Below the pieces are notes generated by a model. The model saw nothing but the letters and a program-made list of their open reading frames with translations, had not been told where the DNA came from and did no database searches. Made by a program: the position numbers and the translations under genes. 64,000 nucleotides of DNA, from the NCBI RefSeq assembly GCF_002976435.1, contig NZ_PUGF01000027.1, positions 1 to 64,000 of the forward strand. Reading direction: 5' to 3'. Of this stretch, positions 57,205 to 64,000 are shown piece after piece; positions within the stretch are counted from its first letter, which is position 1; the number at the start of each line of letters is the position of its first letter. This stretch comes from Solimicrobium silvestre. GTDB taxonomy: Bacteria > Pseudomonadota > Gammaproteobacteria > Burkholderiales > Burkholderiaceae_D.

Positions 57205-57645
57205 ATGAAAAATCTGATGACGGCAAGACCGCCCAAGCTATTCGCATTACTTCTCCTGACCTTGGCTTGCGCCAATATCAACGCTCAACCGCTGCTACGC
57301 TGTGAAATTACATACGCCGGAACCACCCACACGCTAGAAGCGCGCATCAGCGTTGACGCTAACGCAGATGCTGGCGGCGCTTACACAACCGAAGCAATGG
57401 ATATAGGTGGACGGTTCCGCTTTAAAGCGCTCATGCTGGGGACCGAGCAACATGTAGACAGCATCAAACTGTATGCCTATTACGAAACGCACCGGCAAGC
57501 GGTTTTGTTACAGGAAGTGAAGTATGTCGCGCCATTTACACTATCAACGACAGCGTATGGTTTGACTGGACTGAATTACCTCTATTCGCCACCGCTGGGG
57601 CGTGAACTCCAATACGGCTGCGCGTTATTGGAGGCCAAATCATGA
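57205..57645 (+). CDS. Unknown exported protein coupled to a CapA-like gene
   Basis: Protein of 146 residues with a signal peptide (PKLFALLLLTLACANINAQ, cleavage near residue 28). The rest looks like an all-beta domain with two cysteines (LLRCEITYAG near the start and LQYGCALLEAKS at the end), which may form a disulfide. The family is not recognised. Its stop overlaps the next start by 4 bp (ATGA), so the two are coupled and probably work together in the periplasm. Confidence 0.75.
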   Translation: MKNLMTARPPKLFALLLLTLACANINAQPLLRCEITYAGTTHTLEARISVDANADAGGAYTTEAMDIGGRFRFKALMLGTEQHVDSIKLYAYYETHRQAVLLQEVKYVAPFTLSTTAYGLTGLNYLYSPPLGRELQYGCALLEAKS

Positions 57646-58619
57646 TTAAACTCGCCGTCGCATTAGCCTTAAGCATCGCAACCTGCACAGCAGGCGCTGA
57701 GTCAAACTCCCCTACCGTTAGTTTGCTGTTTGCTGGCGATATTGTTTTAGACGGTCAACCCGGTAAAGTCATTGAACAAGGACATGATCCATTTGCCGCC
57801 TTTTCCGACATTATAAATAGCGCCGATATTCGGGTCGGCAATCTGGAATGCGTGATTGCCACAGTCGGTGATCCCGAAGACAAAAATTATAATTTCCGCG
57901 CCCATCCACGTACTTTACCGATACTCAAACAACACTTTGATGCGGTGTCCATTGCCAATAATCATTCCGGCGATTTTGGTCGCCCTGCGTTTGAAGAAAT
58001 GCTAGGCTTACTCGACCAAAGCGGCATTAAACGGTTTGGCGGCGGGCACAATTTAAGCGAGGCGCACACGCCGTTAATCATCGAACGCAATGGCCTACGG
58101 ATTGCCCTGCTTGGCTATAACGAATTTATGCCACGTAGTTTTGAAGCCGATGAGCATGGCGCCGGTACCGCATGGAGCGAAGACGAGCAAGTCAGTGCCG
58201 ACATTCATAAAGCACGCGATGTTTATAAAGCAGATCTGGTGATTCCCGTCATGCATTGGGGCTGGGAGAACGAGCCACATTCCAGCGCTCGCCAACAACA
58301 ACTAGCGCATTTAATGATTAATGCCGGTGCAGATTTAATCATCGGTGGGCATCCGCATGTGACGGAAGAAATTGAATATTACCGGGGCAAGCTGATTGTC
58401 TACAGTGTCGGCAACTTCATGATTGATGCCTTGGATAACGCAGCTCAAATGCGTGGATGGGTTATGCATTTCACGCTGGATCGTAATGGCGTTAAAAGCT
58501 GGAGTACCAGCGTTGCACATATTGACGACAATGGCATCCCTACCCCGGCGCTACAAGAAAAAAGCCCGTGCGGAACAAGAGAGTCAACGCAAATTGACAT
58601 GTGTACCAATGGGAAATAA
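57642..58619 (+). CDS. CapA/PgsA-family metallophosphoesterase-like protein, exported
   Basis: Protein of 325 residues. A short signal peptide (IKLAVALALSIATCTAGA) is followed by a CapA domain with SLLFAGDIVLDGQPG, VGNLECVIA, SIANNHSGDFG, VIPVMHWGWENEP and IIGGHPHVTEEIEYYRGKLIVYSVGNF. These carry the Asp/Asn/His metal ligands. CapA proteins act in poly-gamma-glutamate synthesis in Bacillus, but most proteobacterial members are uncharacterised. No CapB/CapC genes are present. It is coupled to the upstream exported protein. Confidence 0.88.
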   Translation: MIKLAVALALSIATCTAGAESNSPTVSLLFAGDIVLDGQPGKVIEQGHDPFAAFSDIINSADIRVGNLECVIATVGDPEDKNYNFRAHPRTLPILKQHFDAVSIANNHSGDFGRPAFEEMLGLLDQSGIKRFGGGHNLSEAHTPLIIERNGLRIALLGYNEFMPRSFEADEHGAGTAWSEDEQVSADIHKARDVYKADLVIPVMHWGWENEPHSSARQQQLAHLMINAGADLIIGGHPHVTEEIEYYRGKLIVYSVGNFMIDALDNAAQMRGWVMHFTLDRNGVKSWSTSVAHIDDNGIPTPALQEKSPCGTRESTQIDMCTNGK

Positions 58620-58644: not shown

Positions 58645-59238
58645 TTATTTGCTTTGTGTTTTACTGACATCAATGTAGTCAGTAACTAGACTCAGCAGTT
58701 GGTCAAAAGGAGCCGACTTGGAAAACTTGGTCACACCAGGCGGAAACCCGCCTCGCTTTTCTACTTCCTCATCTTCATGCAACTCAGACGCCACAATAAT
58801 CTTCATGGTTTGCACAAACGCGGTATTTTGCAGTGCTTTCAACATTTGCAGGCCATCCATGTTGGGCATGAATAAATCTGTGATCAGTAGATTGGGGCAA
58901 CGCTCACCCATTTGTATCAACGCCTCAAAACCATTACTCACTTTTCGTATTCGTACTTGTGAGCCAAGCGCAGTTAATTGCTCCTCCATTAAACTAACTG
59001 CCGTTGCATCGCCCGAACAAATCAAAATCTCAAAAAATTCACTTACATTCGGCATCGCAGTGCGTGCCGCTAACATCTCATTCACCGATTGGCGGAAAAT
59101 ACGCCGATGTCCACCTGGCGTTTTCCAAGCCTGCAAACTACCGCTTTCCACCCACAACTGAACCGTACGAACACTTACCCCCAAACACTTTGCGGCATCC
59201 CGTGTCGACATAATTTCATCAGAATGGTCGCTCTGCAT
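58645..59238 (-). CDS. Excisionase-type HTH fused to a receiver domain
   Basis: Protein of 197 residues. Residues about 9-60 form a MerR/excisionase-like winged helix (MSTRDAAKCLGVSVRTVQLWV, WKTPGGHRRIF). Residues about 68-190 form a receiver with the acceptor Asp in LLITDLFMPNMDG and Lys in KFSKSAP. The first acidic pair is reduced (ILICSGDAT instead of DD), so phosphorylation may be weak. It starts one base after the HD-GYP gene stop, with AAGGG upstream, so the two are cotranscribed. Likely the DNA-binding output of the cluster. Confidence 0.88.
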   Translation of the reverse strand: MQSDHSDEIMSTRDAAKCLGVSVRTVQLWVESGSLQAWKTPGGHRRIFRQSVNEMLAARTAMPNVSEFFEILICSGDATAVSLMEEQLTALGSQVRIRKVSNGFEALIQMGERCPNLLITDLFMPNMDGLQMLKALQNTAFVQTMKIIVASELHEDEEVEKRGGFPPGVTKFSKSAPFDQLLSLVTDYIDVSKTQSK

Positions 59239-59239
59239 A

Positions 59240-60829
59240 TCAATGCCCTTCAGCGATAATCCAGTCTGGCTTATTTGTACTAAGGAAGTTCATGAGTGCC
59301 TGTATGACGTCAGGATCGAACTGGGTACCGCTCCGGTCGTTAATATAGGTAATCACTTCAGGTAGAGGCCAAGGCTTCTTATAAGGGCGCGCGTGTAGCA
59401 ACGCATCAAATACATCAACCACCGCAACGATACGCGCGGAAAGAGGAATCGCCTCCCCTTTTAAACCGCGTGGGTAACCATTTCCATCAAAGTGTTCGTG
59501 ATGTCCACCCGCAATTTCTGCGCCAAGGCTAAGGCTGCTAACACCTTCCACAGCACCGGCAGCGTGCGCTAATACGGTTTCTCCGATAAGTGCGTGGCCT
59601 TGCATAATGATGCGTTCTTCCGGCGTATGCGAACCCGGTTTCAAGAGTATCGCATCAGGAATTCCTACTTTGCCGACATCATGCAAAATGCTGGCAAGGC
59701 CAACAAAAGTCATAAAATTGGGGTCGATATCAACCGGCAACTTACCTGTATCCAAGAGCTCTCCAGCGATCGCTTCGGTCAGCCGGCAAACACGCCGCAC
59801 GTGCCCACCTGTTGTTGCATCACGTGATTCGGCCAGATCTGCCAAGGCAATTACAGTGGCTTCCTGAGTGGTTTTGAGAAGATCAAACATGTGCAGATTA
59901 TCAAATGCTGCGGCAATCCGGTCACAAAAGATATCAAGCAAATTACATTCAAGCGGGGTCAATGGGCGAGCCGGAGCGAAGGCGACCGCAAACTGTTTAC
60001 CATGTGCCGCGATGATAGACAGTACGTCGACCATTGGACTAAAAAAATTCTTTTTATCATGGAATGTCTGAAGAATTGCCTCTGACCACGGATGCGTGTT
60101 GGGCAGCACATTCTGTTCTCGCAACGAAATTGATTGCCCGATCGTGGCAATCACAATCGGTACCACTTCCTTGGAATTAGTGGAGCTCATCACACACAAG
60201 ATGCCTTCAGTACCAAAGTTAAGGATGGCGCTTATTTGCGTTAACACACCCGAAGCCAAGTCTTTCAGCGAATCAATTTGATACAGGTTATTGACGGCAT
60301 GAAGAATTTTATCCAAACCACGCCGGTTGGCTTCAATAGTCTTTAGCCCTTCATAAGCGCGCAATGAGGAGATTACGCAGGTAAACATTTTTTGCGCGGT
60401 CAGTTCAGTTTTTAATTTGTAATCGTTAATATCATAGTCAACGATAATTTTTTGCTCTGGTGCCTGACCCGGCTGACCGGTGCGAAGTATGATGCGCACC
60501 AGATCGTTATGCAATTCTTCACGAATTCGCTGCGCTAAAATCAAACCGGCGTTCTCAACTTCCATCACCACATCCAGCAAAACCATGCAAATGTCTGGCT
60601 CTCTTGCCAACACCTCAAAGCCCTCTGCTCCGGAGTAAGCGGAGAGGATTTCAATCTCTTGGTTTTTAAAGGTAATGTTTTTTAACGCTAAACGGGTAAC
60701 GGCATGTACATCAAGCTCGTCATCAACGATTAATATGCGCCATTTCGTTACGCATTTCACCGTGGAGTCGATGACTTCACCTTCATCTTCCAGCCAACCT
60801 TCGTCGTCGTCATCCGGTAGTTGAGACAT
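59240..60829 (-). CDS. REC-DUF3369-HD-GYP response regulator, cyclic-di-GMP phosphodiesterase
   Basis: Protein of 529 residues. The receiver (about 30-155) has WRILIVDDELDVHAV and Asp in MVLLDVVMEVE. DUF3369 (about 170-325) is a GAF-like sensor linker. The HD-GYP domain (about 335-525) has His383-Asp384 in ILHDVGKVGIPD, then GHHEHFDGNGYPRGLKGE, all metal and substrate ligands present. It should hydrolyse cyclic-di-GMP under control of a kinase, probably the one encoded upstream (61043). A 213-bp gap with a palindromic repeat separates them. Confidence 0.93.
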   Translation of the reverse strand: MSQLPDDDDEGWLEDEGEVIDSTVKCVTKWRILIVDDELDVHAVTRLALKNITFKNQEIEILSAYSGAEGFEVLAREPDICMVLLDVVMEVENAGLILAQRIREELHNDLVRIILRTGQPGQAPEQKIIVDYDINDYKLKTELTAQKMFTCVISSLRAYEGLKTIEANRRGLDKILHAVNNLYQIDSLKDLASGVLTQISAILNFGTEGILCVMSSTNSKEVVPIVIATIGQSISLREQNVLPNTHPWSEAILQTFHDKKNFFSPMVDVLSIIAAHGKQFAVAFAPARPLTPLECNLLDIFCDRIAAAFDNLHMFDLLKTTQEATVIALADLAESRDATTGGHVRRVCRLTEAIAGELLDTGKLPVDIDPNFMTFVGLASILHDVGKVGIPDAILLKPGSHTPEERIIMQGHALIGETVLAHAAGAVEGVSSLSLGAEIAGGHHEHFDGNGYPRGLKGEAIPLSARIVAVVDVFDALLHARPYKKPWPLPEVITYINDRSGTQFDPDVIQALMNFLSTNKPDWIIAEGH

Positions 60830-60974
60830 TTACTAATCCCTCTAGTTAAATTAAGGGTGGATTCTGTAACTTGCTTTGTATTAATTTAGGATAGCAGATA
60901 GCTTGAAAACTTCAATTTCACCTATTGAAATACATAAAAACAATGGCATTGCATTATTAATAAAACTTTTAGGG

Positions 60975-61033
60975 CTTACGCAAAACTGTTCCGGCAAGGA
61001 CAGCGCATCGCCGCTGGAACGGTTTTGCGTAAG
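60975..61033. repeat. Palindromic element between the kinase and HD-GYP genes
   Basis: CTTACGCAAAACTGTTCC (60975-60992) is repeated inverted at 61016-61033 (GGAACGGTTTTGCGTAAG) with one mismatch. The 23-bp centre is GC-rich and may fold further. There is no T-tract. It looks like a small dispersed palindrome or MITE-like element; it may also reduce read-through from the kinase gene. Confidence 0.7.
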
Positions 61034-61042
61034 TGCTACTTT

Positions 61043-63487
61043 TTAAGGGATCCGAATATATTCATTATCTGACAACTGCCTGGTAATTCTGGGGATGTTT
61101 ATTTTAAATAGCGCACCACCGTCAGCATTATTGTGCGCGCTGATGGTGCCGCTAAATTGTTTACTTACAATATTAAACACAATATTCAGCCCCAAGCCTG
61201 TGCCGCCCTGACCGCGCCGCGTGGTAAAAAAGGGATCGAAGATTTTGCCAAGAATATCTTCGGGAATACCGCAACCGTCGTCTCGGAAATTAATCAACAC
61301 ATGATCATCTGCCAAGTTTGTTTCAATAATAATATGTCCAAAATCACGATTATTAAAAGCATGCGTCACTGAGTTCATGGTCAAATTAGTTACAACCTGT
61401 GCAAGAAGCCCCGGATAGCTATCCATCCGAATTTGACTGATACCGCCGGGCCTCATTTCAATTTTAGTTTTTGCTTTACGCAAGGTCGGATTCAGACTCG
61501 TGATTAACTCGTGTAAAAATTCATGCAACTCAAACTCGCGCCGTTGTTCGCTAGTTTGATCAACTGCGACCTGTTTAAAACTCTGAATTAACCGTGCTGC
61601 CCGGTTAGCATTAGCAATGATGAGACGAGAACTTTCAATCGCCACATGAATATATTCCACAATTTGTGACTTACGAATATTCCCTTCATTCACATTATTA
61701 TTGATCTCAGTACTGGCATCATTTAACACCGACGCACTAGTAACTATAATGCCGACCGGCGTATTAATTTCATGCGCGACACCGGCTACCAGCGAACCAA
61801 GAGCGGCTAATTTTTCAGAACGAACCAACTCCCCTTTGGTTAAATTAAGCGATTCCAGCGCAAGATTAAGCTCTTCATTGGTTTTTTGCAGCTGGGCAGT
61901 ACGTGACAGAACTCGCGATTCCAGTTGCAAATTATTTTCCTGAATTTCGAGCTCTGCGGCACGCTGACCCGTGATATCCACTGGCGCAAAGATAAAAAAT
62001 GTATCGTCCTGGAATTTAATCGGACGACCCGACATTAAACAAATCAAAATACGGCCATCTTTCGTTCTTTGCCTGATTTCAAACCGATTCACCACTTTCG
62101 TTTGCTTGATTTGATCCAACGCCAGATTACGATCAGAAATATCCAGCCACAACTTCATTTCCATCGAAGTGCGGCCAATAATTTCATTCCTTGAATAGCC
62201 AAATTGATCCAGCCAAAAATCATTCACATCAATAAACTCACCGGTTTCAATACGCACTAACGCCAGCGGCATAGGCGCTTGTTTAAAAATACTGGCGAAC
62301 TTATATTGGCTGTCCAGCAGATCTTGCTCATACTGCAAACGCATTCTGTGCGTATCTAAAAACTCGTTAAACCACACCACCAGTTCACTGATTTCATCCT
62401 TGCTTTTCGGGACAACCAAGTGGTGAGCCAAGTTAATATTTTTATCCTGTATGCGGCGAAAGCCATCTGAAATTGCCTGTATAGGCGCCACCATATTGCG
62501 CCTGAAAATTTGACTCGCGAAAAAGATAACAATAAAACTTAATATCACCAGCATCATCAATATCTGAGTCAGTCGATTCATCGGCGCCAATAAGGTTTCT
62601 TGCGGGATGATGCCAAACACCCGCCAGGTTTTGGTATCCAGCTTGGCCATACTGACTAAATTATCTCGGCCATTAATATGAATAATGCTACTGCCACTAT
62701 TTAATTCCATTTGATTTTTAAGCTGGCTCTTAATCTCATCAGACATGACCTGCCCAATCTTGCCGCGCTCCGGCGAATAGATCATTCGCCCTTCTGAATC
62801 CGTGACGATCATGTACGAATGCAGGCCCAAATCAACTTGACTGAAGTGATCAAACAAATAGTCTGTTGAGTAATTAATCAGCAACATACCGACCGGCTCT
62901 GACAATTGCGACGTAGCTGAAAAATGCCGAATAACTTTTATGGCGGTCAATACTTTATGTGCGGTAGATGCGGTATTTAAATTATTTTCAACACCGCGCC
63001 AATACACGGGCTTTTTTTCAGCAATAGCGGCAATGAAAAGTGCGACCCGGACTTTATCATCCACCAGAGGCTCGGAAAGCGTATCACCGACATAAAATTG
63101 ATGCCCCCTGACTGAAAATAAATCAATCGATACAATGCCTTTCAGACTGCTATACAGACTTAAACTTTGCCTGATTTCTGCCTGGGTTGATAATTCATCA
63201 AAGGTATTATGTTCTCTGTTATTTGTGGAATCTGCTTTAACTAATACCGCACTGATTTCCTCACTGCTGGCGATGCGGGTAGCTAAATTTTCAATTTGCT
63301 CCACCACTTGCTGCTGTAAATAGTCACGCTGATTACCGACCAGTTGGGTACTGTATTGCCCGGTCAGATCCAAAATCGTATCGCGCACCACATCATAAGA
63401 AATGATTGCAAAGATCAACAGAGGGAGCGCGCTGACAATGACGAGGTAACCAATCAGCTTATAAATGATGTTGAGCTTTAGTTTCAA
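61043..63487 (-). CDS. Membrane sensor histidine kinase (Cache-HAMP-PAS-HisKA-HATPase)
   Basis: Kinase of 814 residues. Two transmembrane helices (about 10-32 and 308-330) frame a long periplasmic Cache-type sensor. HAMP follows (about 330-385), then a PAS domain (about 395-510, APMPLALVRIETGEFIDVND), a coiled coil (about 520-560), and HisKA with His572 in GSLVAGVAHEINTP. The ATPase domain (about 680-800) has N box LTMNSVTHAF and G boxes DDGCGIP and GTGLGLNI. No receiver is attached. It starts 11 bp after the binding-protein gene stop, so the two are cotranscribed and likely form one sensor. Confidence 0.93.
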   Translation of the reverse strand: MKLKLNIIYKLIGYLVIVSALPLLIFAIISYDVVRDTILDLTGQYSTQLVGNQRDYLQQQVVEQIENLATRIASSEEISAVLVKADSTNNREHNTFDELSTQAEIRQSLSLYSSLKGIVSIDLFSVRGHQFYVGDTLSEPLVDDKVRVALFIAAIAEKKPVYWRGVENNLNTASTAHKVLTAIKVIRHFSATSQLSEPVGMLLINYSTDYLFDHFSQVDLGLHSYMIVTDSEGRMIYSPERGKIGQVMSDEIKSQLKNQMELNSGSSIIHINGRDNLVSMAKLDTKTWRVFGIIPQETLLAPMNRLTQILMMLVILSFIVIFFASQIFRRNMVAPIQAISDGFRRIQDKNINLAHHLVVPKSKDEISELVVWFNEFLDTHRMRLQYEQDLLDSQYKFASIFKQAPMPLALVRIETGEFIDVNDFWLDQFGYSRNEIIGRTSMEMKLWLDISDRNLALDQIKQTKVVNRFEIRQRTKDGRILICLMSGRPIKFQDDTFFIFAPVDITGQRAAELEIQENNLQLESRVLSRTAQLQKTNEELNLALESLNLTKGELVRSEKLAALGSLVAGVAHEINTPVGIIVTSASVLNDASTEINNNVNEGNIRKSQIVEYIHVAIESSRLIIANANRAARLIQSFKQVAVDQTSEQRREFELHEFLHELITSLNPTLRKAKTKIEMRPGGISQIRMDSYPGLLAQVVTNLTMNSVTHAFNNRDFGHIIIETNLADDHVLINFRDDGCGIPEDILGKIFDPFFTTRRGQGGTGLGLNIVFNIVSKQFSGTISAHNNADGGALFKINIPRITRQLSDNEYIRIP

Positions 63488-63498
63488 GCCAGATTTCC

Positions 63499-64000
63499 CT
63501 ATTTCAGCGTATCAGCCGTTATTACCCGGGTATCAATGATCAAAACGGGAGGTATTTTTTCACCCTTAAGAGCGCGCACGGCAAGTGCCACGCCTTGGTA
63601 GCCTTGTTCGGCTGCTTGCTGATCTACAGTTGCCAGCATCGTTCCGGCCTTAATCGCCGCGCGGGCTTCATCCAGTGCATCGTAACCAACCACCAGCACA
63701 TTTTTGCGGCCACTGTCAGCTAAATACTGAATTGCCCCTAATGCCATCATGTCGTTGGCACAAATTAAAGCACCCACCTTAGGGTGCATCATAAAAATGT
63801 GCCTGGCTACTTCATGGGCCTCATCAATCTTCCAATGCGCAGTCTCTTCTGCAACAAGATGCATCATTGGATTTTGCTTGATCGCCCGTAACGCGCCATT
63901 CGTCCGCATCACCGCATTTCCTGCACCGGGCAATCCTTCTAACAAAGCGACTTGGGTAGGCTTATGAATTTTATCCGCCACCAGCATCGAAACGTGATAA
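63499..64000 (-). CDS. Periplasmic sugar-type binding protein (RbsB/LacI-like fold), 5' end cut off
   Basis: C-terminal 167 residues of a periplasmic binding protein; the frame stays open to the window edge, so the internal ATG at 63987 is not the start. Motifs are QVALLEGLPGAGNAVMRTNG, ALICANDMMALGAIQYL, VLVVGYDALDEARAAIKAG and ATVDQQAAEQGYQGV, the signature of type 1 (RbsB-like) proteins. No ABC transporter genes follow; the next gene is a sensor kinase. This suggests a ligand receptor acting through the kinase, as in LuxP-LuxQ. Ligand unknown. Confidence 0.88.
   Translation of the reverse strand, partial: YHVSMLVADKIHKPTQVALLEGLPGAGNAVMRTNGALRAIKQNPMMHLVAEETAHWKIDEAHEVARHIFMMHPKVGALICANDMMALGAIQYLADSGRKNVLVVGYDALDEARAAIKAGTMLATVDQQAAEQGYQGVALAVRALKGEKIPPVLIIDTRVITADTLK

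Follow-up and report, generated by a model that had tools for sequence, protein, structure and literature searches.

How a periplasmic sugar-binding protein comes to be encoded beside a membrane kinase and a predicted cyclic di-GMP (c-di-GMP) phosphodiesterase, and whether these proteins work together, is the question raised by one end of the stretch of Solimicrobium silvestre DNA analysed here (contig NZ_PUGF01000027.1, positions 1 to 64,000 of the forward strand, hereafter the window). Four genes lie there on the minus strand, and both their open reading frames and their Pfam domains confirm the positions given in a preliminary description of this DNA. They encode a sugar-type substrate-binding protein (SBP) that is a predicted lipoprotein of 329 amino acids (63499 to 64000 and on to contig position 64488), a membrane-bound sensor histidine kinase of 814 amino acids with a TTG start (61043 to 63487), a REC-DUF3369-HD-GYP response regulator of 529 amino acids predicted to be the c-di-GMP phosphodiesterase (59240 to 60829), and an HTH_17-REC protein of 197 amino acids that combines an excisionase/MerR-type helix-turn-helix (HTH) with a receiver (58645 to 59238). 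The genes are separated by 11 bases (binding protein and kinase), 213 bases (kinase and HD-GYP), and a single base (HD-GYP and HTH-REC). We consider it probable that this locus contains a LuxPQ-like receptor module set on an HD-GYP two-component pair. In this view, the kinase would contribute its dCache domain, and the binding protein a periplasmic sugar receptor that is probably lipid-anchored, to a single two-part input module, as in LuxP/LuxQ; ligand-driven closure of the binding protein would alter the dCache domain and, via the HAMP and PAS domains, the kinase core; and this core, which belongs to a lineage of HD-GYP partners, would phosphorylate the adjacent HD-GYP protein and thereby set its c-di-GMP phosphodiesterase activity. 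Within this scheme, we infer the class of ligand, the contact between binding protein and dCache domain, and the phosphotransfer together with its sign. If the scheme is true, c-di-GMP breakdown would be open to control by a sugar receptor in the periplasm.

The association of the binding protein with the sensor across genomes carries the first part of this reading. Among 392 genomes of the family, the sensor (E<=1e-15) was found in 8 and the binding protein (E<=1e-60) in 8, and these were identical genomes, with the binding-protein scores dropping from 2.6e-81 to 1.1e-53 for the next ones. A search with the dCache half in 399 genomes of the order gave matches in three, the window's own genome included, and the other two (2/2) both have the binding protein. 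In a plasmid collection of 72,556 records, the binding protein (E<=1e-60) occurred in four, all from Aeromonas, with the pair adjacent in 4/4; the sensor matched 22 records (15 of them listed), the top four of which, at 2e-43, were these same Aeromonas records, while the remaining 18 were weaker, the best among the matches listed reaching 3e-12. A genome collection yielded 19 sensor loci, nine of which (L156-L164) have a binding protein upstream on the same strand, as a broken match in L162. At E<=1e-40 this holds for 9 of the 10 loci, the exception being L166 (31% identical), and no such binding protein was seen at the nine weaker loci, which are 24-35% identical over parts of the sensor.

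Phylogeny of the binding proteins agrees with these distributions. In one tree, a branch separates 17 sensor-linked proteins from 11 unlinked ones (94/96; L136-L141 left out and L224 added), and in another tree 16 linked and 16 unlinked proteins are divided in the same way (94/88). L162 was excluded from the trees, as was L147, which shares its contig with L159, and L132 and L142 were replaced by L096 and L097, which are the same genes. The linked pairs are each encoded on one strand; by mechanically called starts, 16 of the 17 have gaps between -17 and 85 bases, and the remaining one has a gap of 771 bases. The genes of more distant relatives are often embedded in runs resembling sugar-transport clusters by size and order. 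No ATP-binding cassette (ABC) permease or ATPase gene flanks the binding-protein gene of the window, which has the kinase on one side and, up to the end of the contig at 66158 (2158 bases beyond the window), a divergent HutC/GntR-UTRA gene and then an exbD fragment on the other. The absence of ABC genes in the preliminary description thus holds past position 64000 for as much of the contig as exists. From the reciprocity of the pair in the family and in plasmids, together with the separate branch of the linked binding proteins, we conclude that the binding protein and the dCache sensor appear to be a dedicated receptor pair rather than part of a transporter, and the earlier suggestion that the binding protein serves as a receptor for the kinase is supported on the same grounds, namely the same 8 of 392 genomes and the lack of an ABC neighbor.

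The binding protein matches Peripla_BP_4 at 3.7e-57 and belongs to an RbsB/AlsB-like family. Its N-terminus contains a lipobox-like LASC-G, and in the 16 of 17 linked binding proteins that were inspected, a Cys follows a short hydrophobic stretch in 16/16 by eye, 13 of which were caught by a crude pattern; it is therefore probably a lipid-anchored lipoprotein. Of its relatives in the PDB for which a ligand is named, the closest (ranks 3 and 4) bind D-allose, and ribose-binding proteins come next. In a sequence alignment, the polar positions that we take to be the sugar contacts of the allose protein (Lys9, Asn13, Asp91, Arg145, Asn197, Asp223, and Gln242) appear to be matched, and a pyranose-like sugar is therefore our best guess for the ligand. 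The kinase consists of dCache_1 (49-292), HAMP (328-378), PAS (414-506), HisKA (563-627), and HATPase_c (694-800) domains, with HisKA scoring 24.6 bits, under the cut-off of 26.9, and the H-, G1-, F-, and G2-boxes all present. No receiver was reported by the Pfam scan, in keeping with the earlier description of a kinase without a receiver, and a LuxQ model, which presumably exists in Pfam, was likewise absent from its matches. An AlphaFold2 model of the sensor (mean predicted local distance difference test score, pLDDT, of 86.9) has a dCache fold, with chemoreceptor and kinase dCache domains as its best Foldseek matches; LuxQ was not among the best 50 of 158 matches (E<=0.001), and a profile of the sensor gave only weak matches to solved structures, the best being chemoreceptors.

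The second part of the reading, that the kinase acts on the HD-GYP protein, draws on gene order and on the kinase core. The order binding protein, kinase, HD-GYP is also present in G661 (genus g33; gaps of -4 and 12 bases) and G660 (genus g27; 9 and 134 bases). Undibacterium jejuense (U. jejuense) has an HD-GYP orthologue (73%) with a 519-amino-acid kinase without a dCache match beside it, and its receptor kinase is encoded on another contig. In a tree of 54 catalytic cores, the window, G660, and G661 kinases form a 100/100 clade with this stand-alone, HD-GYP-adjacent kinase of U. jejuense, and the five receptor kinases without an HD-GYP neighbor group elsewhere (92/85). In this labeling, L108 was set to unlinked by hand, as an FdhD gene intervenes. 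The core of the window kinase is 62-66% identical to its three clade mates and 45-51% identical to these five receptor kinases, and an approximately unbiased (AU) test, run after a long branch (L032) had been dropped, rejected the grouping of all 8 receptor kinases into a single clade (p 1.2e-6; 8 rows vs 45). In the sensor tree, by contrast, the window, G660, G661, and U. jejuense receptors are one clade (95/95). This disagreement between the two trees indicates that sensor and core have separate histories, the core apparently having been exchanged under a retained sensor. Positions after the phosphorylated His and in the second helix govern the choice of partner by histidine kinases. In a comparison of 13 hand-chosen cores of the 54, the phosphorylated His is followed by EINTPVGxxxT(S/G)ASVL in the 8 HD-GYP-linked cores and by ELNTPIGNSVTVASTL in the 5 receptor kinases without an HD-GYP neighbor, and the two sets also differ in the second helix. 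The exchange offers a ready, natural comparison of the kinase residues that select a regulator. As the core belongs to the lineage that partners REC-DUF3369-HD-GYP proteins, the neighboring HD-GYP protein is the likeliest target of its phosphate. This protein has its receiver Asp (in LLDVVM), the HD motif, and the HHExxDGxGYP motif, although its REC match, at 27.4 bits, is under the cut-off of 30.2. The preliminary claim that the kinase drives c-di-GMP breakdown is thus upheld in part, in that the core groups with an HD-GYP-adjacent core and the three-gene order is found in two more genera.

Several observations weigh against this reading. The five receptor loci mentioned above have a receptor kinase without an HD-GYP neighbor, and the fork that unites all HD-GYP-linked cores is weak (85/75), with 11 unlinked rows in that half of the tree. 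A related kinase core was found near 18 (17 distinct places) of the 51 HD-GYP loci compared, which are the best-scoring among the matches listed, with flanks of at most 1.5 kb and some only 37-42% identical; the pairing is therefore far from universal, and the HD-GYP protein often works with something else. HD-GYP relatives (E<=1e-140) occur in 126 of the 392 family genomes and in every sensor genome except G539 (7 of 8), these genome counts being non-independent events. Within the genus, G002, G003, and G004 keep the HD-GYP protein, and none has a kinase of the window type, from which it follows that the HD-GYP protein is able to work without it. Across the four congeners, the kinase was found in 0/4 at 1e-90 and the binding protein in none at 1e-45, and G001, which is 81% complete, has no HD-GYP protein at 1e-140. 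The HD-GYP gene of the window has its own conserved promoter-like sequence and sits behind a strong palindrome, the lipoprotein assignment of the receptor is based on the lipobox alone, and dCache domains, as discussed below, may do without a binding protein.

Many of these observations fit an orphan receptor kinase, in which the binding protein and the kinase alone are a unit with a regulator elsewhere and the HD-GYP and HTH-REC genes are unrelated neighbors with their own promoter. We regard this as unlikely, but it accounts for the pair being found without an HD-GYP neighbor in the stretches read from U. jejuense, a Rugamonas metagenome-assembled genome (MAG), G688, G626, and G539, and for the retention of HD-GYP and HTH-REC without the receptor pair in G002 and G004. 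The gap between the kinase and HD-GYP genes points in the same direction. It contains, on the minus strand upstream of the HD-GYP gene, the promoter-like sequence TTGAAG-N16-TATCCT (60888 to 60915), whose second hexamer is preceded by TGC and which was not listed by a consensus promoter scanner. By eye, this motif and its spacing are also present upstream of the HD-GYP genes of G002, G003, and G004, where the surrounding sequence is poorly conserved. The gap also contains a palindromic dispersed repeat (60975 to 61048, strand not assigned) that overlaps the kinase stop codon, with a folding energy of -33.3 kcal/mol and a folding z of -3.97. The orphan-kinase explanation is countered by the presence of the three-gene order in three genera and by the fact that the type of core follows the HD-GYP protein and not the receptor. 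In both the HD-GYP tree and the core tree, the U. jejuense pair falls outside the window, G660, and G661, a placement that favors an older cluster with later loss of the receptor genes in G002-G004 over their gain in G000. The palindrome, of about 70 bases, gives 23 matches in its own genome, two of which are the place itself, leaving 21 others, and it is possibly a REP-like (repetitive extragenic palindromic) or MITE-like (miniature inverted-repeat transposable) element.

The place of the HTH-REC protein is a separate matter. The preliminary description proposed a four-gene system in which one kinase drives both the HD-GYP protein and, through HTH-REC, a transcriptional output, and such an arrangement is compatible with a receptor module set on an HD-GYP pair. 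The HTH-REC gene begins one base past the HD-GYP gene, it adjoins HD-GYP in G002 and G004 as well, and the Asp and Lys of its receiver are intact. Several observations speak against it. HTH-REC lies beside HD-GYP in only 3 of the 51 HD-GYP loci (G000, G002, and G004, all of the genus of the window), and the G660, G661, and U. jejuense clusters lack it, as does the interval between HD-GYP and PGA_cap in G003, where no HTH-REC relative was found at 1e-15. The other HTH-REC relatives that were found sit away from HD-GYP proteins of this type, and the four-gene order was not present in any other genome examined. Co-occurrence across genomes thus extends to the binding protein, kinase, and HD-GYP, as in G660 and G661, and stops short of the full set, and only adjacency connects the kinase to the HTH-REC receiver. 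We therefore doubt the proposed four-gene system and regard HTH-REC as a genus-level companion outside the wider conserved unit that may or may not receive phosphate. With a promoter-like sequence and a palindrome in the 213-base gap, the set does not make up a single tight operon; HD-GYP and HTH-REC are probably transcribed separately, with or without read-through from the kinase. We rejected a single four-gene operon on account of the gene orders in congeners and relatives, the promoter-like sequence, and the palindromic repeat. In G004, ExbD, HutC, HD-GYP, HTH-REC, and PGA_cap are collinear with the window, minus the binding protein and kinase; G002 keeps HD-GYP and HTH-REC, and upstream of them is an FdhD gene; and in G003, where the available stretch (L034) starts 526 bases ahead of HD-GYP and the gene upstream is not readable, HD-GYP precedes PGA_cap without HTH-REC. 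The PGA_cap-family gene of the window (57642-58619) is convergent with HTH-REC and has the same position in three congeners. The HutC-type repressor gene (contig 64682-65398, outside the window; TIGR02018, 290 bits vs a cut-off of 220) is divergent from the binding-protein gene, and that of G004 is divergent from HD-GYP.

A different challenge concerns the input rather than the output. dCache domains often bind ligands directly, and many of the Foldseek matches of the sensor are structures with a bound ligand. The dCache domain might therefore sense the ligand itself, with a binding protein that is not essential and only scavenges or modulates. The modeled fold of the sensor appears to be that of directly binding dCache domains. 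The motif of amino-acid-binding dCache domains, RxWYxxA, was not seen in the sensor alignment, an absence that fits indirect sensing but proves nothing. In Vibrio furnissii, AsrK and AsrR are a dCache kinase and a REC-HD-GYP protein, and the sensor is reported to bind autoinducer-2 (AI-2) directly (PMC11796354). We nevertheless consider direct sensing improbable for the window kinase, as its sensor is rarely found without the binding protein (8/8 family genomes, 2/2 order genomes, and 9/10 genome-collection loci at the threshold given above). A sugar ABC importer might have left the binding protein behind as its stray substrate-binding subunit, an idea in favor of which its RbsB/AlsB-like family and the apparent sugar-transport clusters around distant relatives might be cited. 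This is very improbable and was rejected, as no ABC genes are adjacent, its clade is distinct from those relatives, and it is tied to the sensor in every family genome that has it.

Among known systems, LuxP-LuxQ pairs a receptor of the ribose-binding-protein family with a dCache-like sensor kinase, encoded together and without an ABC partner. By description, the window resembles it in having a binding-protein receptor encoded beside a dCache kinase and no ABC partner, and differs in that its kinase has neither a receiver nor a LuxQ Pfam match, and so is not a LuxQ-type hybrid by domain content, its binding protein is a predicted lipoprotein, and its likely target is an HD-GYP enzyme. TorT-TorS is likewise a binding-protein-activated kinase, TorS being a hybrid, but the TorT models score far under their cut-offs on the window protein (TIGR02955, 25.5 of 310 bits; PRK10936, 46.5 of 200), and the model of LsrB, the other AI-2 receptor, gives 56.4 bits vs a cut-off of 384. 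In NspS-MbaA, described in Vibrio cholerae and Sinorhizobium meliloti, a binding protein controls a membrane c-di-GMP protein (PMC9993111, PMC8967002, PMC5646818); by description, the GGDEF-EAL forms of the receptor module discussed below are similar in plan, whereas NspS senses polyamines and the version in the window acts through a kinase. AsrK, by description, shares with the window kinase a dCache_1 domain and a position next to a REC-HD-GYP regulator, which it phosphorylates, and differs in that it binds AI-2 directly, with no binding protein described (PMC11796354). AsrR is more active when unphosphorylated (PMC11796354), and by analogy the ligand could either raise or lower c-di-GMP in the window system. 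The genes of characterized couples of SBP and sensor kinase are neighbors in 10 of 11 cases (PMC11113362), and those of the window are adjacent on the same strand, 11 bases apart. According to a review, work on c-di-GMP networks had dealt with just one domain family of the periplasmic-binding clan, SBP_bac_3 (PMC8846402). In a literature search that covered few subscription journals, no publication on a cluster of binding protein, kinase, and DUF3369-HD-GYP appeared among the papers listed; nor, in the passages seen, did a binding-protein-activated receptor tied to an HD-GYP enzyme or, for DUF3369, a link to a binding protein.

Binding-protein-activated receptors are already known, and their signals are hard to find. 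The clade to which this receptor belongs can be traced through several outputs, and one ligand, once found, would therefore decode many systems. By Pfam, the output is a plain kinase in the window, G660, G661, U. jejuense, and the Rugamonas MAG (for the last two, HATPase_c was reported and HisKA was not at 0.001), and G539, G626, and G688 were judged to be kinases by the similarity of their cores to that of the window. In G005 it is a hybrid kinase that carries a receiver and Hpt, with a REC-PAS protein encoded after it, and in a MAG labeled Chloroflexi it is a kinase, with the 771-base gap to the binding protein and a REC-SpoIIE gene two genes downstream. The remaining outputs are GGDEF in a Giesbergeria MAG, GGDEF-EAL in G189, Azohydromonas, and a beta MAG, and GGDEF-EAL-CZB on the Aeromonas plasmid pKAM330_4; the Laribacter locus L159, on the contig that underlies G317, encodes a protein closely similar to the one in G189, and the Competibacter loci end at contig edges. 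On balance, we lean towards a portable receptor cassette that has been plugged into many outputs, often c-di-GMP ones, across Beta- and Gammaproteobacteria and on mobilizable or conjugative plasmids, with the core exchanged toward HD-GYP in the lineage of the window, so that an unchanged signal would reach an HD-GYP phosphodiesterase.

Some individual loci are worth recording in their own right. On the contig binned as Chloroflexi (L158, 8210-12244), a binding protein from the mostly proteobacterial clade is followed by the kinase and REC-SpoIIE. The GGDEF-EAL-CZB receptor pair L223 (NZ_AP023402.1, 23048-27314) is carried by a mobilizable Aeromonas plasmid of 43 kb and has recombinase genes nearby on both sides, and the same receptor pair is present on three further Aeromonas plasmids. 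The receptor pair of G189 has, upstream and on the same strand, a gene for an Orn/Lys/Arg decarboxylase (L146, 10689-13160), and G317 has an open reading frame of comparable size and place.

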